From: Bryoerythrophyllum caledonicum
Lineage: Eukaryota; Streptophyta; Bryopsida; Pottiales; Pottiaceae
Direction: 5' to 3'
NCBI GenBank assembly: GCA_963971425.1
Contig: OZ020515.1
Location: forward strand, 6,526,291-6,590,290
Length of the DNA: 64,000 nt
Program-made: the position numbers and the translations under genes
Shown here: in pieces, positions 10,674 to 62,211 of the stretch
Layout: each line of letters begins with the position of its first letter
Numbering within the stretch: the first letter of the stretch is position 1
The notes under the pieces: model-generated
What the model was told of the DNA's origin: nothing
Database searches by the model: none
What the model saw: the letters and a program-made list of their open reading frames with translations, nothing else

Positions 10674-10684
10674 AAGAAGAAGAA

Positions 10685-17850: not shown

Positions 17851-20800
17851 AAACCAAATACAACTACATATACACACACAAAGACAACCACACACCATCA
17901 AAGAAACACATACATATACACACACACACACAAAGACGAATACATACAATCAAAAAAGCACCAAAAAAAATACCAAAGCCACATACAAAAACACAAAATT
18001 CCAAAACAAAACAATAAACCCACCTACTACAAACTACTAATATTAATTGGAGGGGACATAAACACAAGGCCAAACACAACCAAAAAAAAATATAAACAAA
18101 CACACACACACCTATACACCATTAATAAAACAAAAACAAGTACGCAAACAAACACATGGACACAAAAAAAATTAAAGATAAATACAATTACATTCAAAAA
18201 AAATATTGAATTTATAAACATCCACCTCTCTCCAAACAAACAAGACCTCCATAACATAACAAAGCCCCAAAGAATTACAAAAAAAGAAAAAACATTAAAA
18301 AACAACACTAAACACACATATCACAAACTCCTACTACTTCTAGGAGGGGACATAGAAACTAACCCAGGACCCATGCCTAATATACTAAAAAGACACCCTA
18401 CTTCACATAAGAAAAATGCAAAAATTTACTTCATACCTAATACCATAAAACTACAACCGGAATATAGACACATTGCAAAATCTTTTGCACCTTTCTTAAA
18501 AAACACACATACATTACACCACACACATAACAACACATATCCAAACATTGCCCGATACGTTCAACAAAAAAATGCGCATCCACCACCTCACATACTATAT
18601 GCTCTAGTAGTCACTACCCATCCACACATAGATGAATGTAACCATCTCTTAAACCCACAAAACCTGAACACAATTACATGGGTCAATACACTTCTACAAA
18701 ACTTACTAAACTTACAAAATCCACCGGAACGACACATCTACACTTCACACCCGTATACAAAGTTCCTTGAAGACAACCAAAATATTATAAACCATGAGAA
18801 CTCAATACATAAGGAACTATATGACTTTTTACACAGCGAAACAATATCTCCCTCAAATGAAACAATAAAAATAAAATTCCCCTACCTACCTAACAATCTC
18901 ATCAATGAATCACTAAAATGTTTGGACCCTATACCAGAATACACCCACCCACCCCCACCACTTCCCTACATCTCTCCGCAAAACCAAAATATTATATCAA
19001 ATCAAGAAAATACATACATAATCACATGGAATGCCTCCTCTCTAAACACTGCCCTTCCTAGCCTACAAACTTTGGTCACGCACACAAATACACCACCAGC
19101 CCTCATAGTTATACAAGAAACAAAATTATCTGCCACAAAATCCACAAAATATATACAAAATATATTTCAAGACTATAAACTCATCTATAACAATATACAT
19201 GCACTTACAAGATGCATTCAACAACGAAGACCATACACACCAGGCCGAGGAGGTCTCCTTACACTAATACACAAAAAATATGCCTTCCCGGGCAACATCA
19301 ACAAAATCCCTACCCCAATGCACATATCACCTTACATTCAAATAATCAAAATTACTAATCACCCTCTACAACCATGGTTAATCTTTCACATGTATATGCC
19401 ATCTCATCCCGAAGACACTAGATTTATCATAGACATACAAAACACTATTACTTCCCAAATTCATAATAACCCTAATCACACATACCTATTGTGTGGGGAC
19501 TTCAACAGAGACATAGCATTAATTGGTCGCCAAAATGGAAATCATAACACCCCCCCTCAAACCATTGATTACCAATGGCGCCGCTTCACAGAAAACTTAA
19601 ACTTCGTCTACATCGATACCGATACACAATTCTCTAGACAAGGTGGCTATAATTACAGCGACTGGAGTCTAATAGATGGATTCTACATAAATACAAACAA
19701 CAATACACAATACACCTCTACAACAAACAAGGATGTTATTCTCAACTCGGACCACTCACCTATACAATTACACATTCCAAATAACACATTAATTAATAGA
19801 ACTCCTACAATCCTAAAAAATGATACTATACGCATACTCAACCCCATTCCAAAAGACAATATAGAAAAATTCAACACCAAATTCTTTGAAAAAAACTCCA
19901 TACAAATAGACTCCCTCATAAACACTCTCGAAAATAACAATCAATTATCACAAATACAATGGCAAGAAGCATGCCACACCCTAGACAAACTTATCAATGC
20001 AATCTCTGACACACTAGAACAAACTTGTAAAGCCCAACCAATACCTCAAATGACAAACAGAACTTCTCAACAAGGAGGTTACTTACCCCGTAAACTTTCT
20101 AAAACTTGGAAACAACACCTAACCACATACCATACTATACGGAAAACCATTAGAATTGTAAAAAATAACCCTCAATGGCGTAATCACCCCATATGCAACG
20201 AACTACTAACTATACAATACACCCAAATCCCTACCCCGCCACCTTCGGACCTACCTCACGATACATGGATAAAAAATATAGCACTAATTGCAAAAAATGC
20301 CAACATACAAGCCCGCAAAATTACCTCAAAATATACCAAAGATAACATTAAAAAAGCCATTTCAAAATATAGACAACTATACGAAATTAGCCCCAAAAAA
20401 ATTAACAGGAAAGTTTTTAAAAACCTTGAATATCCACCAATGGATTGTATCACAGACCAATACAACAATATTCTAACTAGCCCAGAAGACATTGCAAATG
20501 AAATATTCAACCAACAAACCAAAAGTAATAGACCAACAGTACCAACATGTAATTATCAACCACAACATCCATCTGAATGTACATGTGCAGTACGCCAGTA
20601 CCCATGGCACGACCTCGATGGATTTACCCTTGACAAACGAGGCGAACCAGAAATCTCACTACATAAATACTTTAATATAGCCACATATGACACATGTCTT
20701 CACAATCTTGGTAACAACAAAGCCCCAGGCCCAGACCGCATCCCAAACTCAATACTAAAAAACATGCCCCCAAGATTCCATAAACTATTATTACTATTCT

Positions 20801-29022: not shown

Positions 29023-29067
29023 GGGTCCCGGGTTGGTTTCAATGTCTCCTCCTAGAAGTAGTAGAAG
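29023..29067 (-). other. Intact 2A-like motif (N2)
   Basis: It encodes LLLLLGGDIETNPGP then MPNTLKRHPTS. The protein motif is identical to N3, N4 and N5. Confidence 0.85.
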
Positions 29068-29532: not shown

Positions 29533-29577
29533 GGGTCTTGGGTTAGTCTCCATGTCTCCTCCAATTAATATTAGTAG
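29533..29577 (-). other. Upstream 2A-like motif with NPRP (N2)
   Basis: It encodes LLILIGGDMETNPRP then MPNILKRHPTS. Gly to Arg in the NPGP core should abolish skipping. It is 510 bp from the intact motif, and the flanking text is duplicated too. Confidence 0.75.
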
Positions 29578-32750: not shown

Positions 32751-32761
32751 AAGAAGAAGAA

Positions 32762-34390: not shown

Positions 34391-36926
34391 GAGGCGTTGT
34401 GTTGGGCAGGGGTAGTGAAGGTTAGATCTAACTCTGGCATGCGAACCTTGAGCGATCTGAAGGTAGATCGAACTGTAGGCTGATCTGAAAGCACTGGGAC
34501 CTCGTGTTGGACTTTGATCTAACTTCTTAGATCTCAAATTCGTGATGAAGATGCAGATCTAGCTTGTGTTGGTTGTAACGCCCTAAGCCCACTTAGACTT
34601 CTTGTGACTGTTGCCCCGACCCAGAAACCACTACACATACGATCTGAAGTCCACACAGAAACCCGTGATAGCAGTGGTTCACACAGAAGACCATTTACCA
34701 AGGCAAACGCGAGATCAACAACGCACGCACAACCAGAAGCAAATACAAGGTCTGGAGAGAGTAGCCAACCCGCAGCGAGAACAAGATCTTAAGTCAACAC
34801 GAGCGCAAGAGAGTGCAAGCAACCAAGATCTGCAGCAAACAGTAGACACAAAGGAACACGCCAACACCAAGAAACCACGCAGCCAGCACTCCACCTCTGG
34901 AGTGCCCAGGTTTGATCTAACATTACTTCAATTCATTTTATCTTTTGCTTGTTTATTAGTGCTTGATCTATTTGCACATTACAGTACATCAGTGATACAA
35001 AGAAACCTGCACAACACTTACACATTAGTAGCTATCTTGGACACCTTACATATCTCCACATGCACACACACTAGAGGTAGAACACCAATCCACACTAAAA
35101 CCCTAAAAAGAAACTACACTAAACTTGCGTTTGTAGACCGCACGCGGAAGCGCTTGCAAAAAGTTTCAGATCTGGAGCAACTTGCGCCCCAGCAACAGAA
35201 GACAAACACATTTTCAGCATCGACACCGAAGTCACAAGATCAAGAGTGCACAAGACAGCAACACAAAATTCAACAACTCTGCACCGACCCTCCCCACAGT
35301 CAAGCAACAACGACACAACAATCAACAGAACAAGAGCAAGAAAACCTCCAGGTAAGTTTACTCACAAAACTTCTGATTTTTTGCATAATCCCCCCTCTGT
35401 TGCGTCCTCGCAGCTCCCTCCCCCCTGCAACAATATCCCTCCTCCCCCTCGTCTCTCATCCCTCCCATCTTCTATCCTCTATCCCGAAGACTAAACCTGA
35501 ACGACCTAGACAGACTATCCCTACCCCCTCCCCACCCACAGACTCTCCCTCCCCACTAGTAGACACACCCTCTCCACCCGCAGACTCTCCTTCCCCACTT
35601 GCAGACACCCCCTCCCCACCCACAGACCTCCCCTCCTCGCCCGTAGACTCCCCCTCCCTACTCATCGACTCTCTGTCACTGCGCGCAGACAGCCCCTCTC
35701 CACCCGCAAACCTCCCCTCCTCACTCGTAGACTCTCCTACCCCACCCACCCACTCTCTGTCCTCGCCCTCCGACCCTCTGCCCGTAGACTTTTCTTCCCC
35801 ACCCACCGACTCTCTGTCCCCCGACTCTATCACAGACTGTCCCAATCCTCACTCCACAAAACCTCCCCCCCCGACTATAGACTTCCCCTCGCCCTCGCCC
35901 ATAGAATCTCACTCTGCCCCTCCCTTCCTCAAACCCGCTCATAAACACTTAACCCACTCCCCCAGATCTCCACCCTTCATCTCTCACTTACAAACACTCC
36001 CCTCAAAACTACTCTCAGACCCTCACTCATCGTCTCCCTCAGACCTTCACTCTTTATCTCCCCCAGGTCCTCATCCCACTCCCTCAGAATCACCCTTCCC
36101 TCCCTTCCTCGCTTTAAACCCTCCCTCCCTCAGACTCGCCCCCCTCGCCTCCTACTCTCAATCACTCCCCTTCCTCCCCAGTCCTCAACTTCTCCCCAAA
36201 TCTGAAACACCACCAGTCTATGAGACTCCCTCCCCGCCCTCCTCCGCTCTAAACCTACTCTACTCCTCCGCCCCTCCCAACCCCAGCTGCTCCCTGTCTT
36301 CAGCTGCTCCCTGTACCTCCCTCGCAGGGACTCCCACACTACCCCATCCCAGCCCTAGTAGCACAGCGACTCCCAAAAACTCCCAGTCTAGCAGACCGTT
36401 ATCCCCTGCGACACCAGAAACGGGAGTGGCGACACTCCTAAGTTCAGTTCCGACCCCCCTCAACAAAACTGCGACCCTCCTATGCCAAGTTACGACCCCC
36501 CTAAACCACACTACGACCCTCCTAAGCCAAGTAGCGACCCCCCCCACAAACCCTACGACCCCCCTCACAGCGACCCCCCTCCCACCAGTAGAGACCTCCT
36601 CTCCTACACATAGTGCCCCTCTAAACTCCCAGCGACCTCCCTCTCTATCGGTTACTTCCCTCTCTCACTGCGACCCCCTTCCCCCCCACTTTAGACCCCT
36701 GGCCTTCTCCCAACGACCTACCTCCCGAACCCAGCTTTCCCCCCACTATCAGCAACGACCCACTCAACTTCAAAAACCCTCAAACCACACCCCACTTCGA
36801 ACCAGCCCCGACTCAACTCCAAATCACGTGGTAAGTCTCCTCAATAAGGTACGTCACACACCTTTTGTATTTTCCGTTATAAAGTTAAGTGATAAAAAAA
36901 CCAAGAAAACAAGTACAGCTAACATA
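34391..36926 (+). other. 5' leader of N5
   Basis: The leader holds CGCACGCGGAAGCGC at 35139-35153, a donor-like GTAAGT at 35352-35357, a CT-rich tract with 24-bp repeats at 35515-35860, GCGACC motifs at about 36425-36720 and a second GTAAGT at about 36830. The ORF1 frame is open back to 34611 but has no ATG before 36927. The Pro/Ser-rich reading is therefore treated as leader; translation from a non-AUG codon cannot be ruled out. Confidence 0.7.
35515..35860 (+). repeat. 24-bp pyrimidine-rich repeats in the N5 leader
   Basis: Units of the type TCCCCACCCGCAGACTC repeat with a spacing of about 24 bp, changing among GCAGAC, GTAGAC and ACAGAC. In the open frame they would read as eight-residue Ser/Pro/Asp units. 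They parallel the CT-rich repeats of N1 without close similarity. Confidence 0.6.
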
Positions 36927-38549
36927 ATGTCAAACACAAAACGAAACCTTCACTTTGAAGAAAATATGGATATCGATGGTGAAGGGGCAAGCTCAGTACT
37001 AAAAGGAATAAGAAAGAACACAGAGATGGAGACGGGCAGCACCAAGAAGAGTAGGAGCGCACAAGAAGGGGTAAGTCAATCTCCTCCCTTTAATTTGATA
37101 ACCGTGCCTCTCAAGTTTTGGCTAGGATTTGAAGACATGGAACGTCTCGCAATCGAAGAAGGGCTGGAGGAACTCCTTTATGATGAAAAGGTGGAAGACA
37201 TGATGACTAGAGGATTCCAAGAGCATGAGGCAAAAGAATTCAAGATATCGAAGGTGGCTTATCCAAGGATACCCCAACTATATTACCCCATTGCAAGGCC
37301 GGGAAGCGAGGAGCAACACTACAACATCACCCAGATTCCTCAAAACACCAAAGTCAATGGTGCCACAGGTTTGGCAAACGGTTTCCATGTGGCTATCCAT
37401 TTCGAACCCCCTTCCTCCATTTTATTGCATGATGAGGTTCATAAAATGATAACTCATAGGCTCGAAAGCATGGACATTAAATTAGGTAATGGTGTCATGG
37501 ATCCTATCTATATTCATTGCCATAGTGTCAAGAGGGGTGGGCAAAAGGGTGTATGGACCGGGATGCTCAAATTACACTTACTTAACCCCGAAACTGACGC
37601 TCTCATGTTGCTAAAAGGCATTAGGCCTTTCATTCTCACCATAGACAACCAAAACATAATTGGTAAAGTATGTAAAGCTTATCCTCAAATTGCTAACCCC
37701 TCTAACCTCTCCGTGCAAGTGAGAAGTGATACATTAGTAGGTATCTCCTCCCACCTACTTTTCAAGGACATCCTCATCAATAGTTTCAAGAGAGGCCAAG
37801 ACTATGAGATCACCGAGGTGTCTAAAGTGGAAGGAGACCCCTACGCCTTTATTGCCGCCACCACTCCTCTCCAAGCCTCAAGGATCCAACTTCAACACAT
37901 CACCACCCATCATGAAGTCATCAAAGCACGGAAGACCTACACCGGCGGTCGTATGACCCCCGAAACCAAGGCAAAGAAGGATGCCATATCTCTCACCCTC
38001 TCTCCTTTGCCTCTTCTCATGGATGTGCAAGATGTCACTAATGCCATTCAAAGGATCATGGGAGTTAACAACGTTAAAAACATATGGTTCCATAAAGAAA
38101 TTGGTGGTAGGCATAATGGCAAAGCTAACGTGGAATGTACTAACCCAATTGTATACAAGCAATTTGTTAGGAAGCATTTTGACATTGGAGACAACTATGT
38201 GGACTTCACCCCACATTGGAAGAGCTTAGAAGGCACACAACCCCCAACGGAGGAACAAATCAATGCCTTTGGGTTCAACGACATCAATGCCGCCATGGTC
38301 TACACCGTGGCAACCTTCAAAATACAAGATGCACCAGCCGCCATCACCAAGAAGGAGTTGAAGGAGGCATTGGAGGAAAACAACAAGAAGGTGATAGAAG
38401 AAAGCAAGAAGTACGCCGACACACTACACAACTCTTTGATGGAGCATCTAGACAAAATGGAAGAAGCCATGAATGCCACAAGACTTGCATTCCAAGCCAT
38501 GAAGGGAAGAATGCCACCTAGACTCGAAGATAGGTCGCCAAACATGTAA
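36927..38549 (+). CDS. ORF1 protein of N5 (540 aa)
   Basis: Probable RNA-binding partner of the LINE RNA. The start is chosen at 36927 because it is the first ATG of the frame and aligns with the ATG starts of N1, N2 and N4. Residues 1-50 are variable and basic. The core begins LKFWLGFEDMERLAIEEGLE. Residues about 352-430 (SLTLSPLPLLMD, then VKNIWFHKEIGG and GDNYVDFTPHW) have the spacing and beta-rich look of an RRM. About 475-530 (KEALEENNKKVIEESKKYAD) is a predicted coiled coil that could mediate trimerisation. It ends PNM-TAA. ORF2 follows 21 nt later in the -1 frame. The RRM call is by eye and the core family is unknown to me. Confidence 0.8.
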   Translation: MSNTKRNLHFEENMDIDGEGASSVLKGIRKNTEMETGSTKKSRSAQEGVSQSPPFNLITVPLKFWLGFEDMERLAIEEGLEELLYDEKVEDMMTRGFQEHEAKEFKISKVAYPRIPQLYYPIARPGSEEQHYNITQIPQNTKVNGATGLANGFHVAIHFEPPSSILLHDEVHKMITHRLESMDIKLGNGVMDPIYIHCHSVKRGGQKGVWTGMLKLHLLNPETDALMLLKGIRPFILTIDNQNIIGKVCKAYPQIANPSNLSVQVRSDTLVGISSHLLFKDILINSFKRGQDYEITEVSKVEGDPYAFIAATTPLQASRIQLQHITTHHEVIKARKTYTGGRMTPETKAKKDAISLTLSPLPLLMDVQDVTNAIQRIMGVNNVKNIWFHKEIGGRHNGKANVECTNPIVYKQFVRKHFDIGDNYVDFTPHWKSLEGTQPPTEEQINAFGFNDINAAMVYTVATFKIQDAPAAITKKELKEALEENNKKVIEESKKYADTLHNSLMEHLDKMEEAMNATRLAFQAMKGRMPPRLEDRSPNM

Positions 38550-38569
38550 AGACTAAAGACCTCAAGGTA

Positions 38570-41500
38570 ATGCACAAGTACCACCTACTACACACTACTC
38601 TCTACACACGGTATTTTACCCTAGATAAATACCTCCCATCCATTAGTATTATATATGTAGAAGTTCTCACACAACCTACAACCATACTTTGTACGGTCTA
38701 TTATACGAATATCAAATACATTTTACACTACAAATACATGTACAAAATACCCAACCATTATACCATCTACCAAACATATACTAAAAAATATTTCTCCCAT
38801 ACCAAATACAAGAACTATACCAAATACTACCCTAACTACTATAGCAAATACCAAATACCAAGTACAAAAATATATACACTCACATGTACACATACACATA
38901 CACATATACACAATACTAAAATACATACACATACAAATACACTAGTAAACACACACATACATACACAAACAAATAAGAAAACAAATTACAAACAAAAACA
39001 CACAAAAATACAAAATAAATCACATACACACAAACACTCATACACCAACATAAACACACATACACATACACACAAATCATCAAAAAAACATACAAACATA
39101 ATCAAAATACAAAGGAAAATATGCAAACATACACTCAAACATATAACCACAAAAACGCACAACAAAAACAAAATTAAAATTAAAACTAACACCATAAACA
39201 CAAAAAAGAATACAATCTCACACACCAACCAAAAAACAAAAACACCCAATATGCATTATAAATCAATTAAACATCCATATACCACAAAAACAACTACAAA
39301 CAAAACAACCCACACAAACAAAGACACACACACACCTCCAAACAAACATAACCTCAAAAACATCATAAAACCTCAAAAAACCGCACAGAGAATTAATACA
39401 AATACATACACACATACATATACAAAATCAAACATACACCATCAAAGAAATACATACATATATACACACACATATAAAAACAAATACATACAATCAAATA
39501 AACCAAAAACAAGATACCAAAGCCACATACAAAAAATTCTAAAACAAATGAAGATAGATATTTATAAAATTTCAAAGGTTTCAAATAGAACAAGTAGTAT
39601 TAAAAATAAAAGAAAAAAATCGGAGAGGATATGTAAGAAGAATATAAAGGGTAAGGTAAAAAACCATTATCATAAGAATACAAATAATAAGTACATAGGA
39701 AGAAATTGTTGTACTAAAAATAGAATATGCTTCCTAAGGAAATCAAAAATAAGGGATGGAAAACTATCCAAACTTGTAATGAGAAACACAAATTGTAGAT
39801 TAAAAATAAACAGAAAAGACACTAGAAACATAACAAAACATACTAAAAATAGAAGTTGGAATACAATTTATAGGGATAAAAGGAAAAAATCGGAGAGGAT
39901 ATGTAAGAAGAAAATAAAGGATAAGGTAGAAAACCATTATCATAAGAACACATATAACAAGAACATAGCAACAGAAAATAATAATAAAAATAGAATATGC
40001 TTCCTAAGAAAATCAAAAATAAGGGATGGAAAATTAACCAAATTAGTAATGAGAAATAATTATCATAAAAATACAAATAATAAAAACATAGCAAGAAACT
40101 TTAGTACTAAAAATAGAATATGCTTTCTAAGGAAATCAAAAATAAGGGATGGAAAATTAACCAAATCTATAATGAGAAATAATTATCATAAGAATACAAG
40201 TAATAAGAAAATATTTACAATCAGCAGTACTAAAAATAGAAAACGCTTTCTAAGAAAATTAAAAATAAGGGACGGAAAATTAATGAAACTAGTAATGAAA
40301 AACAAAAAATTTAGAGTAAAAATGAGTAGAGGAAATGGGAATAATAAAATAGTGCAGAATAAAAATAGAAACTGGAAGATGGATCATAGGGATATTGATA
40401 AAAGGAAAGTTAATAGTAAAATTAAACTTGATATATATAAAGATGAGAAGAGTTTGCGGTTAAAAAGTAAAAATTTGTTGAGAGGATGTAGGGGGAAAAA
40501 AATAGAAGGGGGGAAATGTGTTTGGCTGGCCGGATGGGCGTCGAAGGCGCCAAAAATAGACTTACTAAAAATAGAAATTCTAATAAAAGTAAGAACATAT
40601 ACGAATCTGATTGAAATAAATATCAATCTGTTTTTAGAAATCATAGTTTTAGACAAAATATGTTTAGAAAGAAATCTTTTAGAAAACTCATTATTTCAAT
40701 ATACGGGTACATATACTGATACGTATATTGATATGTATACTGATACGTATACTGATACATACACCGATGAATATACTTATAAATATACTGATATAAATAC
40801 TGGTACGTATACTGATACACATACTGGTATATATATAAATACAAATAATTATACTTGTAGAAATGCAAATACCAATACAAATATTGGTACGTGTACTCAT
40901 ACGAATACTAACACAAATACTAACAAAGATACTCATACAAATACCAAGACAAAAACCGTGACATACACTAATACAAACATACAAAAAAATACTAATATAA
41001 TACCACATAAAACTACATACACACACACAAAGACAACCACACACCATCAACGAAACACATACATATACATACACACATACAAAGACAAACACATACAATC
41101 AAAAAAACACAAATACCAAAGCCACATTCAAAAACAAAAAATTCTAAAACAAAACAAAAAACCCATCTACTACAAACTATTAATATTAATTGGAGAAGAT
41201 ATGGAGACTAACCCAAGACCCATGCCGAACATATTAAAAAGACACCCCGCTTTGCACAAAAAGAATGCCAAAACACATTTCATACCAAATACCCATACAA
41301 ACACCAAAACAAACAATTGTACAAACCACAAAGTATATAATAACACCGCATATGAAAAAAAGGACTTAAAAGCCACTTTAAAAACCAACATAAACCCACA
41401 TACAAATAGTCTTAAATATAATAGTTACATATGCACACGGACAAAAACAACCAAGATTAAATACAACCAATCATATATACATCCATACACTACTAAAACA

Positions 41501-44500
41501 AAAACAACCACAAAAAACACATGGACAAAAAATAAGCTAAAGACGAAAACAACTACACCTACTATAAAAATAAATAAACCCACAACTCACACACAAAATA
41601 CAAACATCCACCTACCCCCAAACCAACAAGTCATTAATAACACAACAAAGCCTTTAAAATACACCACTAAACATATATACCACAAACTTCTACTACTTCT
41701 AGGAGGAGACATTGAAACCAACCCGGGACCCATGCCCAATATACTAAAAAGACATCCTACATCACATAAGAAAAATGCCAAAATCTACTTTATACCTAAT
41801 ACCATAAAACTCCAACCAGAATATGAACACATTGCAAAACCATTTGCACCATTTCTAAAAAACACACATACATTACACCACATACACAACACTTCCCACC
41901 CAAACATTGCCCAATACATACAACAAAAAAATACGCATCCAACACCCCACATCTTATATGCACTAATAATCACTACTCATCCAAACATAGATGAATGTAA
42001 CCAACTTCTAAATCCACAAAATTGGAATACAATTACATGGACTAATACACTCCTACAAACCTTACTAACCTTACAAAACCCACCAGAACGACACATTTAC
42101 ACTCCACACCCCTATACTGAATTCCTAGTAGACAACCAAAATATTATAAACCATGAGAACACAATACATAAAAGACTATACGACTTCTTACATAGTCAAG
42201 ACATACCACCCTCAAATGATACAATAAAACTAAAATTCCCTTACCTCCCTAACGACCTCATAAGTGAATCACTAAAATGTCTAGACCCTATACCAGAATA
42301 CACCCACCCACCCCCACCTCTTCCCTACATCCCTCCTCAAAATCAAAATCAAAACATTAGACCAAACCAAGAAAATACATACATAATCACATGGAATGCC
42401 TCCTCACTAAACATTGCCCTTCCTAGCTTACAAACTCTAGTCGCAAACACAGACACACCACCGGCTCTTATAGTTATACAAGAAACAAAACTAACCCCCA
42501 CAAAATCTACAAAATATATACAAAATATATTTCAAGACTATAAACTCATCTTTAATAATACACATGCACTTACAAGATGCATGCAACAAAGGAGACCATA
42601 CACACCGGGCCGCGGTGGCCTCCTTACATTAATACACAAAAAATATACATTCCCCGGCAACATCAACAAAATCCCTACCCCAATGCACATATCACCATAC
42701 ATTCAAATAATTAAAATCACTAATCACCCACTACAATCGTGGTTAATCTTTCACATGTATATGCCATCCCATCCCGAAGATACTAGATTTCTCTTAGATA
42801 TACAAAACACTATTACAACCCATATTAATAATCATCCCAATCATACATACCTATTATGTGGAGACTTCAATAGAGACATAGCGCTAATTGGCCGCCAAAA
42901 TGGAAACCATCACACCCCCCCTCAAAACATTGATTACCAATGGCGCCGCTTCACAGAAAACTTAAACTTCACTTACATCAATACCGATACACAATTCTCT
43001 AGACAAGGTGGCTACAATTATAGTGATTGGAGTCTAATAGATGGTTTCTATATAAATACAAACAACAACACACAATACACCTCCACAACAAACAAAGATA
43101 TTATTCTCAATTCGGACCACTCACCCATACAACTGCACATCCCAAATAACACACTAATTAGTAGAACTCCTACAATCCCAAACAAAGACACTATACGCAT
43201 ACTCAACCCCATCCCAAAAACCAACATAGAAAAATTCAACACAAAATTCTTCGAAGAAAACACCGTACAAATAGACTCCCTCATAAACACTCTTGAAATC
43301 AATAGTCAATTAACACAAGCACAATGGCAAGAAGCATGCCACTCTCTAGACAAACTCATCAATAAAATCTCTGATACACTAGAACAAACTTGTAGAGCAC
43401 ACCCAATACCCCAAATGACAAACAGAACCTCTCAACAAGGCGGGTATCTACCCCGCAAACTTTCTAAAACTTGGAAACAACACTTAACCACATACCATAC
43501 CATACGTAAAACCATTAGAATTGTAAAAAACAACCCTCAATGGCGTAACCACCCCATACACAACGAACTACTAACCATACAACACATCCAAATCCCTACC
43601 CCGCCGCCTCCGGACCTTCCCCACGATACATGGATAAATGATATCGCGATAATTGCAAAAAATGCCAACATACAAGCCCGGAAAATAATCACAAAATACA
43701 CAAAAGAAAACATTAAAAAAGCCATCTCAAAATACAGACAACTATACGAAATCAGCCCCAAAAAAATTAACAAAAAAGTCTTTAAAAACCTTGAATCCCC
43801 ACCAATGGATTGTATCAAAGATCAATATAATAATATTCTAACTAGCCCCGAAGACATTGCGAATGAAATATTCAACCAACAAACAAAAGCCAATAGACCA
43901 ACAGTACCAACATGTAATTACCAGCCACAACATACAATAGAATGCACATGTGCAATACGCCAATACCCTTGGCACGACCTGGACGGATATACCCTTGACA
44001 AACGGGGCGAACCAGAAATTCCACTACATAAATACTTCAATAGAGCCACATACGACACATGCCTCCAAAATCTTGGAAATAATAAAGCCCCAGGCCCAGA
44101 CCGCATACCAAACTCAATACTCAAAAACATGCCTCCAAGATTTCATAAACTACTATTCCTATTCTTTTCTCACTGCTCTAAACAAAAACAAATACCAAAT
44201 TCATGGAAAACAAGTGCAACAATTTTACTATACAAAAAAGGCGATCCATCCATGCTACCCAATCATAGACCAATTGCACTAGCTAACACAATATATAAGC
44301 TTTTTACCAGTACACTCACCTACATACTATCCTCATACGGCGAAATATTCAAAATCCTACATGATAGTCAAGAAGGATTTGGAGCGGAGAGAAGTACCGC
44401 ACGGCAAATACAAACTATAATAGCCGCATTAGAAGACGCAAAATTTACTAACCAAGATATATACATACTATACGTGGACTTCAAAAATGCCTTTGGCTCA

Positions 44501-47500
44501 ATTGATCATGCCAGACTTCTAGCAATAATGTCAGACCTTGGCTACCCAAAAGAGGCAACTACACTTGTTGGAAACATCTATTCCCAATCATCTACTTGCT
44601 ATATCGGCGAACACTTGGGGAAAACAAAACCTATACCCATCCAAAGAGGAACTATACAAGGGGACACCCTTAGCCCATACTTATTTATTATATTTTTAGA
44701 ACCACTACTTAGATGGCTAGAAAGAGGCAATAATGGATATACTTTCGGCACATCACAAGTCACAATAAACTCCGCCGCATACGCAGATGACCTAGCCACC
44801 ATAACTAACAAAATCAAATCAATCCAAATACAACTCCATAAAATTGATAGATATTGTAAATGGGCTGGCATGGATGTGGGAGTTCCAAAATGTGCCGCTA
44901 CCGGATGCCCAAACAAATCTAAATTGAACCCTACCACTTTCAAAGCCCTAATGCAAACCTCTAACATCAACTACCGAAACCAACCAATCCCTATACTACA
45001 CCAAAATGAACCATACATATACCTAGGTACAAATCTTGTTCCCTCACTAAAATGGAAAATCCAAATCCACACTACAACCACAAAGCTCATCAAACAATGC
45101 AAAGAACTAACAACATGTCCGGCCACCATGAAACAAAAAATAAAAATGGTTGATACCGTACTACGCCCAGGTGTGGCATACAGTTTTTATGGGGTACCAT
45201 ACTCTATGCCAGCCATCAAAAAACTTGATCAAAAAATAATAGCCATACAAAAAACCATATGTGGACTACCAAAATGTATGTCAAACGCAATAACACAACT
45301 ACCACATAATCTATTTGGTCTTGAAGCTTTCTCCCTAAAAAACGCATATCTCCGATGTATAGGAGAACAACTACAAAATGCCTTAAACGATAAAGGTAGA
45401 CTTGGAAAAATTTATAATGGATTAACTCATTACATCCTCGCCCAATACGGGGGCGCCGAAAACATACCCAGAATTAAAAAAAGCGACTGTATAAGATCAC
45501 CGATAACACGGACATTCTTCTTATTAAAACATATAGCCAAAGTCCACCTTAAAAGCACACTCCCAAACTTCCTCATTAATCCTACAACACTTGAAATACT
45601 ATGGCGACAAGAAACACTAAACCACAACACACTCAATGCCCAACTCTCCCAAAAGCTTCTACAAAAACTCCTCTCAAAAAATATTTTTGAATTAGCACAA
45701 ATTACGCTACCCAACGGCACACATATCATGAACAACGAGGACTTCAAAACCTACCACTTCACCCCATCCAAACTATTAAAAAGTGCCTTAAATATTGCTA
45801 AACAACTATTTTGCCACCAAACATGCCCCAATACATGTCGTATTCCTTGTAACATACATCTATACTCTCATATACTTAAAGATTCATTCATCACCCTCAA
45901 CAATAACATCAACCCAAGAAATATCCCCACACCAATCAATCCCGCTAACCCTCCACATACATATCACCCCCGCCCCCACCCCCCAACATACATCCCCAAA
46001 AACCCTACCACATATCCCATTAATAACATCATACACCATAAACATATCCAACACACAGACACAAACAACATACAAAATACCTACACAAAATATCTATGCC
46101 AATGGCAACACAATGATAATACATATAATAAATGGCTCCCCCAAAGAGACCTTTTTCCACGACACGATACCAATACCTCCACACATAACACCGAAAAATT
46201 GAAACAATACTACCAAAAAATTCAAAACAAAACATACGCGGATATCATCCTAGCCCATCACCCCCAAGAACAATTCCCAGACTCAAGATCCGTAACACCA
46301 CCCATAATTATCCCACTCTTAAACATCTACACAACAGAATGCAACCCCGAAAATGATATCCTTACATCCTCAAACACAATTCAAATAGATAACAATCAAG
46401 CACATCTATACGAAGAAAACGGCCGACATTTACACACCATACCCATTACCTGTCTCCAATGGTTATGGAAACAATATCACACAAAATTCCAAACCCCTAC
46501 AAACATTGAACCAACAACCCAACCCTTTGAAACCGAACTAATATGGCTTTACCAAAGGTATAAATATCGAATACCAAAAACTGACCCCCTCAAAAATGCA
46601 CAATACACAATACCCACCCCCATCTTAGACTCGCTAATCTCATCCTTTAACATCGAACACTCATACTTTTCCTCCCCGATCACATGTCCTACCAAACTAA
46701 ATAAATTCTACTCACCATACGAAAGAGACAAAATATTTGGATCCCTAGGCAAGGCCTTTGACCACAAATGGATCGGAAATGGCATAGCTCACCCCCACAA
46801 CGAGAAAGACATGGAACAAGCCATACATTGGGCTAGGCTTGCCGCCAAACACGATCCAAATAACACAAAAACAATCATCGTCTCACCGAACAACAATTGG
46901 TACCAAAACAACAACCAACACTCAAATCCATCCCCAGATTCCCACATCATTGCAATATTCGAAGCAGACACAATAACATACGTAGAACCTAATATTCCAC
47001 CCGAGCTAAAAAAACCCCGAACTGAACCATCTACATTACAAATACTATGCGTCCATCATCAAAATCAAACCATTGGCTCTCTAGAACAACTTGCGGAACT
47101 TACCTCCATAACAGACAATCTAGATATACAAAGACCATACACAAAACCGGCCCAACCAACACCCATACAAACCCCCGTAAACAAAAGTAAAAATTGGTCA
47201 AAATTAAACTATATCAACAACACATTAAACTACTCCGTCATACCTCCCTCTCTTCCAGACTACCCAACTCGTACCACACCAAAATTTAACCCCGCACACA
47301 GTTATTACACCGACGGCTCCTTTAAACCACCGGAACAAATTAGCCCGGGCTCTTGGCGCAGAGAAAAAGCTGGATATGGCATATATAATTCTACCAAAGA
47401 AATTAAACTAGCCAAAAGACTCCATGGACTACAAAATATCCTCAGAGCAGAACTCATGGCCATCCACAAAACACTACAAATCATCACAACAAAATACAAA

Positions 47501-48766
47501 AATGAACCTGCACATATATTCACCGATCGTATAAATGCACTCTACCTACTAAACACTCAAATAACACATCCAACCCTTCACAACAGTCACCCCGACCAAA
47601 CCATACTAACATCAATGGTACAAATGTTACAAAACCGCACACAAATCACAACCCTTCACAAAGTCAGAGCCCATGCCAACATTGATGGCAACGAACAAGC
47701 AGACAAACTTGCAAAAAAAGGCCGAGAAAAAACACACAAAAATGCCAAAGACCCGCACGAACACGCCCATGCCACCCCATACTACTTTCAAAAAGAAGAT
47801 TGGCCTTCCAAAGAAGATACCCCCGACAAAGGCCCAATTAGATTTTTGGGCAAATATCTCAAAAAACAAGACCTCTACAACAACCTTGACACAATCTCAG
47901 AAAATATTCCTAACATAGAGAAATGGACTAACAATAACGACATAGACAATGAACTCTCTACAAACTTTTGGAAAAACCCCATCATCTCAGACTCACAAAT
48001 AACATGCCTCATCAAATTCCGTACTGGCCAGTATATGGGAAACGCTCGCAAGCAACTCTTCTTTGGAACAGAAAGATTCCCATCCATAACATGTCCCATA
48101 TGCCCCTCAACAGACCCCGATACATGGCTTCATGTTCTACTCAAATGCCAAAACCACCACATTCACTCTTTAATTGTTAAAAGACACAATAAAGCGGTAT
48201 GGGAAGTCCGAAAACTAATCACATCCTACAATAAATCGAGATGTTTCATATTAATGAACGCCGGCACTTTTAATAATAATCCACAAGACAATACGGTCCC
48301 CCCTTGGCTACTCCCGTGCTCATGTATGACCCAAAGATGTCAGTGTAACGCTCGGCTGAAACCGGACATCCTTTGCATTAAAGGTCTACCATATAATGAC
48401 CCACCACCCGAGAACATCAACCTAGAATACACCATTCAATTCATTGAGTTCACATATTGCAATGATAGATTTTCCCCGGAAACAATCCAAAATAAAATAG
48501 ATAAATACCAACCCCTTATTGACGACATCACCGCCCTCGGATGGAATGTCGCCCCCCTTATTATAATCACATCCGGCGCTCGTGCCACCACCTTTATCCC
48601 ATCTATGAAATCTCTTGAAGATACCTTCAAGATACCCATTGAAACAATTAAAACCTCCTTCAAAAACATTAACACCATTGCTACTCAATATGCCATGTCC
48701 ATTCTCCTACATAAACGCAAAATCGAGAACAATCAAGCCCTCCCCGATACACAGGACCCCCCTTAA
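38570..48766 (+). CDS. ORF2 polyprotein of N5 (3398 aa): repeats, 2A, APE endonuclease, RT, RNase H, zinc knuckle, PD-(D/E)XK-like
   Basis: This is the replication protein of the LINE, expected to nick target DNA and prime reverse transcription. Order by residue: Thr/His/Lys-rich N-terminus; four basic 41-aa repeats (about 375-585); Thr/Tyr array (about 705-810); dead 2A (GEDMETNPRP) 870-884; intact 2A 1040-1054; APE endonuclease about 1268-1525 (TWNASS, IQETKL, CGDFN at 1430, SDHSP at 1515); reverse transcriptase about 1838-2130 (YVDFKNAFGS at 1968, YADD at 2071); RNase H about 2910-3050 (YTDGS 2913-2917, E2961, AHANIDGNEQAD from 3034); zinc knuckle C3175-C3193; PD-E domain from 3265 (KPDIL, E3293 in FIEFTYC). 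It starts at ATG 38570, but the frame is open from 38534. GFGAERS replaces the GFRAERS of the other copies. No stops. Confidence 0.88.
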   Translation: MHKYHLLHTTLYTRYFTLDKYLPSISIIYVEVLTQPTTILCTVYYTNIKYILHYKYMYKIPNHYTIYQTYTKKYFSHTKYKNYTKYYPNYYSKYQIPSTKIYTLTCTHTHTHIHNTKIHTHTNTLVNTHIHTQTNKKTNYKQKHTKIQNKSHTHKHSYTNINTHTHTHKSSKKHTNIIKIQRKICKHTLKHITTKTHNKNKIKIKTNTINTKKNTISHTNQKTKTPNMHYKSIKHPYTTKTTTNKTTHTNKDTHTPPNKHNLKNIIKPQKTAQRINTNTYTHTYTKSNIHHQRNTYIYTHTYKNKYIQSNKPKTRYQSHIQKILKQMKIDIYKISKVSNRTSSIKNKRKKSERICKKNIKGKVKNHYHKNTNNKYIGRNCCTKNRICFLRKSKIRDGKLSKLVMRNTNCRLKINRKDTRNITKHTKNRSWNTIYRDKRKKSERICKKKIKDKVENHYHKNTYNKNIATENNNKNRICFLRKSKIRDGKLTKLVMRNNYHKNTNNKNIARNFSTKNRICFLRKSKIRDGKLTKSIMRNNYHKNTSNKKIFTISSTKNRKRFLRKLKIRDGKLMKLVMKNKKFRVKMSRGNGNNKIVQNKNRNWKMDHRDIDKRKVNSKIKLDIYKDEKSLRLKSKNLLRGCRGKKIEGGKCVWLAGWASKAPKIDLLKIEILIKVRTYTNLIEININLFLEIIVLDKICLERNLLENSLFQYTGTYTDTYIDMYTDTYTDTYTDEYTYKYTDINTGTYTDTHTGIYINTNNYTCRNANTNTNIGTCTHTNTNTNTNKDTHTNTKTKTVTYTNTNIQKNTNIIPHKTTYTHTKTTTHHQRNTYIYIHTYKDKHIQSKKHKYQSHIQKQKILKQNKKPIYYKLLILIGEDMETNPRPMPNILKRHPALHKKNAKTHFIPNTHTNTKTNNCTNHKVYNNTAYEKKDLKATLKTNINPHTNSLKYNSYICTRTKTTKIKYNQSYIHPYTTKTKTTTKNTWTKNKLKTKTTTPTIKINKPTTHTQNTNIHLPPNQQVINNTTKPLKYTTKHIYHKLLLLLGGDIETNPGPMPNILKRHPTSHKKNAKIYFIPNTIKLQPEYEHIAKPFAPFLKNTHTLHHIHNTSHPNIAQYIQQKNTHPTPHILYALIITTHPNIDECNQLLNPQNWNTITWTNTLLQTLLTLQNPPERHIYTPHPYTEFLVDNQNIINHENTIHKRLYDFLHSQDIPPSNDTIKLKFPYLPNDLISESLKCLDPIPEYTHPPPPLPYIPPQNQNQNIRPNQENTYIITWNASSLNIALPSLQTLVANTDTPPALIVIQETKLTPTKSTKYIQNIFQDYKLIFNNTHALTRCMQQRRPYTPGRGGLLTLIHKKYTFPGNINKIPTPMHISPYIQIIKITNHPLQSWLIFHMYMPSHPEDTRFLLDIQNTITTHINNHPNHTYLLCGDFNRDIALIGRQNGNHHTPPQNIDYQWRRFTENLNFTYINTDTQFSRQGGYNYSDWSLIDGFYINTNNNTQYTSTTNKDIILNSDHSPIQLHIPNNTLISRTPTIPNKDTIRILNPIPKTNIEKFNTKFFEENTVQIDSLINTLEINSQLTQAQWQEACHSLDKLINKISDTLEQTCRAHPIPQMTNRTSQQGGYLPRKLSKTWKQHLTTYHTIRKTIRIVKNNPQWRNHPIHNELLTIQHIQIPTPPPPDLPHDTWINDIAIIAKNANIQARKIITKYTKENIKKAISKYRQLYEISPKKINKKVFKNLESPPMDCIKDQYNNILTSPEDIANEIFNQQTKANRPTVPTCNYQPQHTIECTCAIRQYPWHDLDGYTLDKRGEPEIPLHKYFNRATYDTCLQNLGNNKAPGPDRIPNSILKNMPPRFHKLLFLFFSHCSKQKQIPNSWKTSATILLYKKGDPSMLPNHRPIALANTIYKLFTSTLTYILSSYGEIFKILHDSQEGFGAERSTARQIQTIIAALEDAKFTNQDIYILYVDFKNAFGSIDHARLLAIMSDLGYPKEATTLVGNIYSQSSTCYIGEHLGKTKPIPIQRGTIQGDTLSPYLFIIFLEPLLRWLERGNNGYTFGTSQVTINSAAYADDLATITNKIKSIQIQLHKIDRYCKWAGMDVGVPKCAATGCPNKSKLNPTTFKALMQTSNINYRNQPIPILHQNEPYIYLGTNLVPSLKWKIQIHTTTTKLIKQCKELTTCPATMKQKIKMVDTVLRPGVAYSFYGVPYSMPAIKKLDQKIIAIQKTICGLPKCMSNAITQLPHNLFGLEAFSLKNAYLRCIGEQLQNALNDKGRLGKIYNGLTHYILAQYGGAENIPRIKKSDCIRSPITRTFFLLKHIAKVHLKSTLPNFLINPTTLEILWRQETLNHNTLNAQLSQKLLQKLLSKNIFELAQITLPNGTHIMNNEDFKTYHFTPSKLLKSALNIAKQLFCHQTCPNTCRIPCNIHLYSHILKDSFITLNNNINPRNIPTPINPANPPHTYHPRPHPPTYIPKNPTTYPINNIIHHKHIQHTDTNNIQNTYTKYLCQWQHNDNTYNKWLPQRDLFPRHDTNTSTHNTEKLKQYYQKIQNKTYADIILAHHPQEQFPDSRSVTPPIIIPLLNIYTTECNPENDILTSSNTIQIDNNQAHLYEENGRHLHTIPITCLQWLWKQYHTKFQTPTNIEPTTQPFETELIWLYQRYKYRIPKTDPLKNAQYTIPTPILDSLISSFNIEHSYFSSPITCPTKLNKFYSPYERDKIFGSLGKAFDHKWIGNGIAHPHNEKDMEQAIHWARLAAKHDPNNTKTIIVSPNNNWYQNNNQHSNPSPDSHIIAIFEADTITYVEPNIPPELKKPRTEPSTLQILCVHHQNQTIGSLEQLAELTSITDNLDIQRPYTKPAQPTPIQTPVNKSKNWSKLNYINNTLNYSVIPPSLPDYPTRTTPKFNPAHSYYTDGSFKPPEQISPGSWRREKAGYGIYNSTKEIKLAKRLHGLQNILRAELMAIHKTLQIITTKYKNEPAHIFTDRINALYLLNTQITHPTLHNSHPDQTILTSMVQMLQNRTQITTLHKVRAHANIDGNEQADKLAKKGREKTHKNAKDPHEHAHATPYYFQKEDWPSKEDTPDKGPIRFLGKYLKKQDLYNNLDTISENIPNIEKWTNNNDIDNELSTNFWKNPIISDSQITCLIKFRTGQYMGNARKQLFFGTERFPSITCPICPSTDPDTWLHVLLKCQNHHIHSLIVKRHNKAVWEVRKLITSYNKSRCFILMNAGTFNNNPQDNTVPPWLLPCSCMTQRCQCNARLKPDILCIKGLPYNDPPPENINLEYTIQFIEFTYCNDRFSPETIQNKIDKYQPLIDDITALGWNVAPLIIITSGARATTFIPSMKSLEDTFKIPIETIKTSFKNINTIATQYAMSILLHKRKIENNQALPDTQDPP
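39705..40320 (+). repeat. Basic 41-aa repeat region of N5 (four units)
   Basis: Four units of KNRICFLRKSKIRDGKLTKL type, the first separated from the rest by a second tandem duplication with a period of about 273 bp (RKKSERICKKKIK segment at about 39606 and 39878). In frame with ORF2. Confidence 0.75.
40700..41000 (+). repeat. 12-bp Thr/Tyr array of N5
   Basis: In-frame units TATACTGATACG and relatives encode YTDTYTDTYTDE and TNTNTN. It corresponds to the array at 29810-30020 in N2. Confidence 0.65.
41177..41221 (+). other. Upstream 2A-like motif with NPRP (N5)
   Basis: LLILIGEDMETNPRP followed by MPNILKRHP. The core Gly is Arg and the preceding GGD is GED. It is expected to be inactive. 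Confidence 0.75.
41687..41731 (+). other. Intact 2A-like ribosome-skipping motif (N5)
   Basis: LLLLLGGDIETNPGP followed by MPNILKRHP. The nucleotide sequence differs from N3 at synonymous positions while the protein motif is unchanged, consistent with selection on the peptide. Confidence 0.88.
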
Positions 48767-54696: not shown

Positions 54697-54741
54697 GGGT
54701 CCCGGGTTGGTTTCAATGTCTCCTCCTAGAAGTAGTAGAAG
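54697..54741 (-). other. Intact 2A-like motif (N4)
   Basis: LLLLLGGDIETNPGP then MPNTLKRHPTS, as in N2. Confidence 0.85.
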
Positions 54742-55206: not shown

Positions 55207-55251
55207 GGGTCTTGGGTTAGTCTCCATGTCTCCTCCAATTAATATTAGTAG
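55207..55251 (-). other. Upstream 2A-like motif with NPRP (N4)
   Basis: LLILIGGDMETNPRP then MPNILKRHPTS, as in N2; inactive core expected. Confidence 0.75.
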
Positions 55252-58200: not shown

Positions 58201-59832
58201 CTAGTTTGGCCTTCCATCTTCAAGCATTGGGGTGGACATAGTGCTTGCCATGGCTTGTAGTGTGGCAAGGGCGGCCTTCATGGAGTCTTGCACGCTTGCC
58301 ATTTGTTTCTTCAACTCCTCACTCTTCATATCGGCGTATTCTTTGTTCTCCTCCCGAATTTTCTTGTTATTTTCTTCCAATATTGCCACTAGTTCTTCCT
58401 TGGTCACATTGTTGGTCTTGTCTTGTGTTTGGAAGGTGGTCATGGTGTTGACAATGGCCGTGTTGATGTCATCAAATCCAAAGGATTTGATTTCTTCCAT
58501 GGTGGGAGGGGTGTCTCCTTCCAAGCTACGCCGGTGAGGTGCAAAATCCACATAGTTACCTCCAATGATGTGGGTTTTCCCCACAAAGGTCCTATACACA
58601 ATAGGGTTAGCACATAAAATATTGGCATTGCCATTATGGCTAGTGCCGTTATCCTTGTGGAACCATATGGAGCGGACATTTGCACCACCCATAACTTTGT
58701 AAATTTCGTGGGTGGTGTGCACTACATCCAAGTGAATGGGGAGGGGAGATAAAGTTAAGGTTAGTGCATCTTTCTTAGCTTTGGTTTCGAGTTTATCTTT
58801 TGGCCCATTGACTTCGAGCACTTGTCTTGTTTCCAAAACTTCATGTTGTGCGGTCGCTTGGTGGAGGAGGATTTTCTTCACTTGCTTGGGGGTGGTGGTG
58901 ATGAGGAAGGCATGGGAGTCCTCATATTTCTTTTGTACTCCCGTTAGCTCGAATTCGAAGCCTCGGCGGAAACTATCTTCGAGCACTTCCTTGAAGAGTG
59001 CTTGGGCCGTGATATCCTTCAATGCATCACTTTTGACTTTCACGGAGAGGTTAGCATCTTTAGAAATGCCTTGGTAGGCCTTGCAAACTTTGCCAACAAC
59101 TAGTTCTTCCTCAATTTTAAGAATAAAGGGTCTAATGCCTTTTAGTAACATCAACCCATCAACTTCGGGTTTGAGCAAGTGTAACTTAATGCTTCCCGCC
59201 CATACCCCCTTAATCTTCCCTTGTTTGATGCTTAAACATTGAATAGCTATAGGGTCAATTAATTGTTTGCCAAGAGAAATGTTCATCATTTTTAACCTTG
59301 CAATGACCATCTCCTTTACCTCATCATGCATAATAGGGATTTTTGGGATTTCAAAGTGAATTCCCACATGAAAGTCTAGTGACATACCAGAATTCTCGTT
59401 TGTGGGAATGTCGAAAGGAATTTGGGTGAGGTTGTAGTGTTGTCCAACCTCCCCTTTCCTTGACATTGGGTATAGCACTTGTGGGATTCGGGGGAATGCT
59501 ACCCTTGCAATGCTCACTTCCTTGGCCTCCTCCGGTTTTAGCCCTCTAGTAATCATGTCTTCCACCGTTTCGCCGCTAAATAAAGGTTCAGCTCCCTCTT
59601 CAATTGCCATTGCTTCCATAGCTTGGAAGCCCATCCAAAATTTGAACGAGCATAGTTCCGGTGTGGAAATTATCTTACCTTCTTGCCTCGGGGATGTCTT
59701 GCTTTTCTTGCTGCTCCCACCTTCCTTGTCCATCCTTCTTGTTGTTTTCGCGGTTGGGGTTGTTCCGAAGTTGTCCTCCATGTCCTCTATCTCCATGTGG
59801 GTGCTGGAGCTTTTCCTAGTGTTGCCCGTCAT
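58201..59832 (-). CDS. ORF1 protein of N4 (543 aa), open
   Basis: It starts at ATG 59832 (MTGNTRKSS), aligned with the N1 and N2 starts. The frame is open further upstream but only from a TTG codon, so that part is treated as leader. Basic Ser/Lys-rich N-terminus, then core FKFWMGFQAMEAMAIEEGAE. The RRM-like segment is ALTLTLSPLPIHLD with IWFHKDNGTSHNG and GGNYVDFAPH. A coiled coil follows (ILEENNKKIREENKEYADMK). No stop inside, although ORF2 of the same element is broken. It is clearly diverged from the N2 ORF1, even though the ORF2 regions of N2 and N4 are nearly the same. It ends GRPN-TAG, without the Met found before the stop in the other copies. Confidence 0.8.
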   Translation of the reverse strand: MTGNTRKSSSTHMEIEDMEDNFGTTPTAKTTRRMDKEGGSSKKSKTSPRQEGKIISTPELCSFKFWMGFQAMEAMAIEEGAEPLFSGETVEDMITRGLKPEEAKEVSIARVAFPRIPQVLYPMSRKGEVGQHYNLTQIPFDIPTNENSGMSLDFHVGIHFEIPKIPIMHDEVKEMVIARLKMMNISLGKQLIDPIAIQCLSIKQGKIKGVWAGSIKLHLLKPEVDGLMLLKGIRPFILKIEEELVVGKVCKAYQGISKDANLSVKVKSDALKDITAQALFKEVLEDSFRRGFEFELTGVQKKYEDSHAFLITTTPKQVKKILLHQATAQHEVLETRQVLEVNGPKDKLETKAKKDALTLTLSPLPIHLDVVHTTHEIYKVMGGANVRSIWFHKDNGTSHNGNANILCANPIVYRTFVGKTHIIGGNYVDFAPHRRSLEGDTPPTMEEIKSFGFDDINTAIVNTMTTFQTQDKTNNVTKEELVAILEENNKKIREENKEYADMKSEELKKQMASVQDSMKAALATLQAMASTMSTPMLEDGRPN

Positions 59833-62199: not shown

Positions 62200-62211
62200 G
62201 TCACGGCGGAC
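62200..62211 (+). repeat. Target site duplication of N4, right copy (GTCACGGCGGAC)
   Basis: Pairs with 32739-32750; this copy has the ancestral base by comparison with N1. Confidence 0.85.

Follow-up and report, generated by a model that had tools for sequence, protein, structure and literature searches.

The 2A of the trypanosome LINE L1Tc is found close to the N-terminal end of the open frame, and Odon et al. reportedly described 2A sequences in APE-type non-LTR elements of multicellular organisms in 2013. The use of StopGo by trypanosome and sea urchin LINEs is established (PMC5972666, PMC11512398), and the Gly of the 2A together with the preceding Pro is reported to be essential (PMC5972666). 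A 2026 StopGo survey defined both the core of the motif and an L-rich class of preceding hexapeptides, and according to it no natural use of StopGo by plant viruses has been reported (PMC12846837); in plant cells (N. benthamiana), the 2A is active (PMC4981915). Three further systems offer points of comparison, namely SART1, with its UAAUG stop-restart coupling (Kojima et al. 2005, cited via PMC5972666), Cardiovirus, in which a −1 frameshift follows closely after StopGo (PMC5009743), and the Dualen/RandI non-LTR group, for which APE plus RLE and RNase H have been reported (PMC4640811).

Here, we analysed a stretch of 64,000 nucleotides (the window, G000:C2:6526291-6590290) from a 437,360,962-base assembly of 894 contigs, which was also scanned as a whole; its host is photosynthetic, as 58 chlorophyll a/b-binding matches in the assembly indicate. 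For one of the host's LHCII proteins, the PDB matches ranked second and third are 8htu and 7xqp, from the moss Physcomitrium. Like the 2As of L1Tc and of sea urchin LINEs, the 2A found here lies upstream of an APE endonuclease and an RT and has the D(V/I)ExNPGP core. In contrast to those elements, the host is a plant, ORF1 is separate and followed by an ORF2 in which a long spacer able to expand precedes the 2A, and this 2A belongs to a tandem pair of one dead and one live copy. Viral StopGo sequences share the LLLLSG-like hexapeptide, the D at p12 and the core octapeptide (PMC12846837), whereas here the x of the core is T (K at some other genome sites) and the setting is a plant retrotransposon. 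No earlier report of a 2A in a plant LINE was found in the open-licence literature searched; LINE 2As are known as such, and the spacer with its ORF1-coupled setting in a plant LINE looks new. We consider it probable (about 0.75) that a working StopGo/2A frees the enzyme of a large plant LINE superfamily from a spacer that is entered at the ORF1 stop. A plant retrotransposon of very high copy number would thereby join the natural users of StopGo, and some 1400 sites, accompanied by 2A-1 as a dead control supplied by nature, would become available for testing sequence rules on plant ribosomes.

The 2A motif and its conservation

The earlier note on this DNA had placed the 15-residue peptide LLLLLGGDIETNPGP at four positions in the window, and exact translation recovered it at every one, each time within a long open frame: in copy N5 at 41687..41731 (+ strand; LLLLLGGDIETNPG followed by P, termed 2A-2, also used in the conservation comparisons), in N3 at 18328..18372 (+), in N2 at 29023..29067 (−) and in N4 at 54697..54741 (−). 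As to the synonymous DNA differences that it mentioned, the 27 nt coding for GDIETNPGP were compared among N3, N5 and N2: they read the same in N5 and N2, and N3 departs from these two at 4 synonymous positions. Both the window motif and the genome sites match the core (D/G/C/N)(V/I)ExNPGP. The hexapeptides preceding the D (LLLLGG, LIILCG, LLLLSG and LLLQSG) belong, judged by eye, to the L-rich class with D at p12, the GG end of the family A hexapeptide differing from the (A/S/C)G ending that PMC12846837 gives for this class.

Such an L-rich 2A might instead act mainly as a signal or targeting sequence with part-time skipping, sending the enzyme to two destinations in the manner of the sea-urchin NLR 2As. 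The L-rich stretch precedes the core in the families read, and 2As with a dual role as signal sequences are functional in both mammalian and plant cells (PMC4981915), but in the present elements a long spacer separates the motif from the distant start of the open frame, and secretion would bring no obvious gain to a retrotransposon enzyme; we regard a targeting role as highly improbable.

A genome-wide search for GDIETNPGP, which the earlier note had suggested, gave 1402 sites in the 437 Mb assembly with a degenerate 26-nt pattern against 0 in the reversed control, which rules out a chance motif. Sites coding for GDIETNP numbered 1598 (control 1), and 1402 of them (88%) go on with GP; those coding for D(V/I)ExNPGP numbered 1714 (control 2) and include DIEKNPGP. 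Four DIEKNPGP-coding sites are located within the initial 6 Mb of contig 1 (G000:C1:2354649, 2803293, 5238331 and 5518843) and perhaps mark a further 2A-bearing family.

Families A and B were sampled with queries lacking the motif. The family A sample consists of the best 50 of 150 scored loci from 3932 candidates (query: a 199-aa stretch downstream of the motif), and the family B sample of the best 30 of 150 scored loci from 3822 candidates; since these are the best-scoring loci, old copies are under-sampled. The motif was exact in 45/50 of these best A loci, one further locus reading RDIETNPGP, and in 20/30 of the best B loci. The loss of NPGP from most related copies, which according to the earlier note would speak against a functional motif, was not seen among these best-scoring loci. 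The motif was also present in 20/20 C-type copies (L110-L129), a figure that is no unbiased rate because these copies were chosen mostly for long open frames.

Codon substitutions were compared between families A and B after omission of stop codons, of codons containing N and of stretches below 25% residue identity. The results showed a pN of 0.027 for the nine motif codons versus 0.24 for 90 downstream codons, while pS was about 0.7 for motif and downstream codons alike, synonymous change being near saturation. The six residues before the motif are free to vary (pN 0.35). By its pN, the motif ranks 7 of 98 windows, and the six lower ones comprise three that overlap the motif and three in the KIYFIPNTIKL block, which is better conserved than the 2A between the two families. 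The dN/dS test across copies that the earlier note had proposed was run here on nine codons within families, where the values of the motif were unexceptional. Within family A, dN/dS was 0.41 for the nine codons (0.77 for NPGP, with few changes) versus 0.38 downstream, with an intactness rank of 57 of 88; within family B, it was 0.164 versus 0.179, with rank 39 of 88 (codons in badly mismatched neighbourhoods omitted in both). We read these values as those of young copies decaying after insertion. That the 2A is a mere relic of recent copying is ruled out by the saturation of synonymous change between A and B. At the level of codon substitutions, the comparison shows that the 2A is under purifying selection between families. 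Judged in this way, the window motif is a real, selectively maintained StopGo/2A-type signal in a plant LINE, and it is very probably functional.

An upstream copy of the motif, 2A-1, was found by translation in all four window elements. In N5 (LLILIGEDMETNPRP, 41177..41221, +), N2 (NPRP, 29533..29577, −) and N4 (NPRP, 55207..55251, −), it lies 510 bp upstream of the live 2A and reads LLILIG(E/G)DMETNPRP, the Gly being replaced by Arg; in N3 it is wrecked (LLILIGGDINTRPNT, 18034..18078, +). The dead spelling recurs genome-wide: 179 sites code for GDMETNPRP, and among the matches listed all but seven have one common spelling, which indicates that one master was probably amplified with 2A-1 already dead. 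In 37 of the 50 family A loci, those agreeing with the majority at >85% of their upstream codons, 2A-1 showed 16 nonsynonymous and 7 synonymous variant types, compared with 1 and 3 for 2A-2. Because the Gly and the preceding Pro are reported to be essential in active 2As (PMC5972666) and 2A-1 drifts, only the live copy seems to be needed. These counts show the dead, drifting 2A-1 to be an internal control for the live 2A-2. Exact GDIETNPGP pairs 510 bp apart also occur, at G000:C1:6319947/6320457 and 44910457/44910967, where both tandem 2As may be intact.

The spacer between ORF1 and the 2A

The spacer of N5 (38549..41686, +) has 1046 codons that are stop-free in the −1 frame, many in-frame repeats (of 12, 24 and 123 bp), and an A content of 51%. 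Upstream of the 2A, families A, B and the element C2 have no obvious likeness beyond A-rich, low-complexity sequence: the family A spacer is built of repeats of 12 to 123 bp, that of family B contains (CAA)n, which encodes polyglutamine tracts differing widely in length (seen in ten near-identical copies, L092-L101), and that of C2 comprises 419 codons rich in Thr, Asn, His and Lys. The copies L092-L101 are apparently very young and differ almost only in the (CAA)n length directly before the 2A, a hypervariable coding microsatellite; they look like members of a recently active element. Like L110-L129, they were picked from matches with mostly long open frames, and the B1 copies accordingly give no unbiased rate.

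Stops were counted after the CAA runs had been shortened. None occurred in the 2A frame of N5 (80 and 106 in the other two frames), C2 (21 and 13) or B1 (16 and 13), or in the corresponding frame of the leader 9940+ (6 and 30), which an insertion ends before any 2A; in each of these four cases, 0/500 simulations were stop-free. For five other B loci, stop-free runs arose in 1 to 5 of 500 simulations. The spacers of N2 and N4 are now broken by stops or shifts. In the copies tested, the spacer is open only in the 2A frame, and unrelated spacers precede the same 2A.

A conserved protein encoded by the spacer was considered: the 123-bp repeats preserve the reading frame, but the differences between codon positions show only a weak bias (158/205/317 in N2, 54/43/60 in N4 and 46/42/52 in N5), dN/dS between 2A-1 and 2A-2 is 0.5-0.7, and a Pfam search with the spacer gave no match. 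By these measures, the frame of the spacer is kept and its sequence is nearly free. The earlier proposal that an N-terminal protein is released by the 2A can be upheld as far as the position is concerned, skipping at the motif being placed to free the endonuclease-RT protein; the upstream part, however, with its open frame, mostly free sequence and lack of relation between families, does not behave as a conserved protein.

In N5, the enzyme frame after the 2A (41732..48766, +, by translation) has a Met directly after NPG/P, and since nearly every copy has a Met there, an internal start would be possible. According to this alternative, there would be no skipping, synthesis of the enzyme would begin at the AUG that immediately follows NPGP, and everything before it would be a leader that ribosomes do not translate. 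The Met is indeed found in 50/50 A and 30/30 B sampled loci and in 19/20 C-type copies, and in ten open B loci this AUG is the first in frame after the ORF1 stop. However, a leader that is not translated would have no need to keep one single frame clear of stops for 73 to 1046 codons, nor would it need nine codons held at a pN of 0.027 with saturated synonymous change, and we think an internal start without skipping unlikely, with only a small chance of being right.

The ORF1 stop and the proposed entry into the spacer

ORF1 of N5 is an open frame at 34611..38549 (+; core tested from about 36921) with the end GCCAAACATGTAA, and ORF2 is open from 38570-48766 (+). At their junction (38534..38572, +), the −1 frame overlaps ORF1 by 13 nt, the ORF1 stop occupies 38547-38549, and the first ATG of the −1 frame is at 38570. 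Relative to ORF1, the 2A is in the −1 frame in N5, B0, B1 and C2, as is the leader of 9940+, and this frame is already open at the ORF1 stop, with overlaps of 13, 22, 40, 121 and 175 nt. In N4, the 2A is in frame 0 relative to ORF1, from which many stops separate it; the −1 frame of N4 is nearly open (one stop) for about 900 bases past the ORF1 stop, which suggests a later indel. No ORF1 core adjoins N2 or N3 in the window. Stop-codon readthrough from ORF1 is argued against by the −1 relation.

Among family B junctions, the ORF1 end was placed in 36/40 loci (L081 is without a stop there). The 2A frame was −1 in 26/36, with 5 loci in each of the other two frames, and 20 of the 26 were wholly open. 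Ten of these open loci have no in-frame ATG before the 2A, and the other ten are young and near-identical, with a first ATG at +284. By hand count, the 2A was intact in 20/20 open B loci versus 8/16 others and, with the young copies left aside, in 10/10 open versus 8/16 not open.

The 17 family A junctions read TAATGAC in ten cases and TAAAGAC in seven. Of six fetched, three have an AUG at +2 and lack one at +23, and three with AAG at +2, the kind to which N5 belongs, have the +23 AUG; in one of the six, L131, a stop interrupts the −1 frame. The restart AUG of family A thus seems to have moved between +2 and +23. The UAAUG overlap (10/17 A junctions) is absent from N5, N4, 9940+, C2 and the B loci read. 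The +2 codon of the B loci is not conserved (17 ATA, 10 GCA, 4 GGC, 2 GGT and 2 ACA), and no AUG is found near the ORF1 stop in ten B loci, B1, C2 and 9940+. By their sequences, the family A junctions point to UAAUG-type coupling, and those of family B to near-cognate restart or frameshifting. The likeness to SART1 lies in the UAAUGA at the ORF1 stop of the 10/17 family A junctions and in an AUG in the −1 frame; here, in contrast, the restarted frame crosses a spacer that the 2A would remove, and several lineages are without the AUG.

Entry might instead occur by a programmed −1 frameshift as in gag-pol, close to the YCAAAC with which ORF1 ends, in which case the 2A would split an ORF1-spacer fusion, and not a spacer-only peptide, from the enzyme. 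YCAAAC ends ORF1 across diverged ORF1s, as TCAAAC in 34/36 B loci (ten of them near-identical and young) and C2, and as CCAAAC in N5, N4, 9940+ and 15/17 A junctions (the last C being fixed by the search pattern); moreover, the −1 frame is open ahead of the ORF1 stop (by 13-175 nt), and the ten open B loci have no AUG before the 2A. Against this, YCAAAC does not have the form of an X XXY YYZ heptamer, and a search of the ORF1 overlaps of N5, B1, B0 and C2 gave no such heptamer; downstream folds at seven junctions are weak, none being strong (z −1.87 to +0.31); the overlap sizes are, by estimate, about those expected by chance; no YCAAAC is present at the end of the ORF1 at 62184-63797; and family A keeps an AUG near the stop. 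Taken together, we give entry by frameshifting somewhat less than even odds. Cardiovirus offers a precedent for two recoding events in one message, as would be the case here if frameshifting holds, whereas here the frame change would precede StopGo by hundreds to thousands of bases.

In the reading that we prefer, ribosomes that have finished ORF1 would restart or slip at its stop and enter the −1 frame, by a termination-coupled restart in family A and by near-cognate restart or a −1 frameshift in family B. They would then translate the long stop-free, low-complexity spacer and stall at the L-rich GDIETNPG, where the spacer polypeptide would be let go with the Gly-Pro bond unformed while synthesis of the endonuclease-RT-RNase H protein continues. 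As a skip at Gly-Pro makes the enzyme start with Pro whatever the spacer, the 2A would insulate it from the fast-changing, repeat-expanding leader, and this decoupling of an essential enzyme from a fast-evolving leader would be a reason for a LINE to keep a 2A. The skipping activity, the entry event and the insulating role of the 2A are what we infer from these patterns. The old question of how LINE ORF2 is translated would thereby become testable in lineages with versus without a restart AUG.

A more far-reaching and tentative idea, which we doubt slightly more than we believe, is that the whole forms a gag-pol-like cassette. At the ORF1 stop, ribosomes would change frame or restart; they would then translate a spacer that is nearly sequence-free and expands by repeats (including hypervariable polyglutamine tracts), and the 2A would finally cut this spacer away. 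For the B lineage without an AUG, the cassette would mean −1 frameshifting and then StopGo in one message. We know of no like expression system. If true, spacers could be swapped or expanded with the enzyme untouched.

Enzyme domains and genomic surroundings

Downstream of the 2A, N5 encodes an APE-like endonuclease domain at 42386..42907 (+; Exo_endo_phos E 3.7e-5, 0.5 bit under the Pfam cut-off; PDB exonuclease III E 1e-4 over a short stretch) and a reverse transcriptase at 44243..45028 (+; RVT_1 E 6.2e-24; PDB best match R2 at E 5e-32, LINE-1 next). An APE-like domain upstream of a LINE RT is the arrangement of APE-type non-LTR elements, the APE match being the one 0.5 bit below the cut-off. 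RNase H follows at 47300..47725 (+; E 2.3e-12), and the C-terminal motifs CPxC...H...C, KRHN and KPD...E at 48092..48478 (+) resemble a restriction-like endonuclease by eye only, a PDB search for such a domain in the N5 C-terminus being without a match. The APE-like domain, the RT with R2 as its best PDB relative, the RNase H and the C-terminal CCHC-KRHN-KPD motifs, which resemble an RLE by eye only, recall the Dualen/RandI group. Different from that group are the 2A and a PCIF1-like domain, neither of which is known there to our knowledge.

This PCIF1_WW-like domain lies between RT and RNase H, at 46490..46891 in N5 (+; Pfam E 2.4e-10) and at 22999-23598 in N3 (Pfam E 1.4e-11). A PDB search gave a PCIF1 structural match at only E 0.33, and a two-row profile search gave none; the domain is assigned by its Pfam match, and any PCIF1-type catalysis would be putative. 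A literature search that paired PCIF1 with retrotransposons listed no paper whose title or opening abstract lines mention a domain of this kind. Just before it, at 45500-46460, there is a weak chromodomain-like match (E 0.016 in N5 and 0.12 in N3, below the cut-off). An NCBIfam search and tRNA and Rfam scans of the window gave nothing useful.

The family is present in high copy, with about 3900 candidates per query, of which 150 were scored, and the window copies have a common 3' end. At the 3' ends of four compared copies, a further member of the family adjoins directly, inverted at 10675, 25643 and 49054 and in the same orientation at 32751, which suggests frequent self-nesting or a target preference. 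Three further ORF1 cores in the window, at 8449-9940, 58204-59832 and 62232-63695, are 43-49% identical to that of N5. The core at 58204-59832 precedes N4 and that at 8449-9940 precedes an A-like leader, which hints at ORF1 swapping between LINE lineages.
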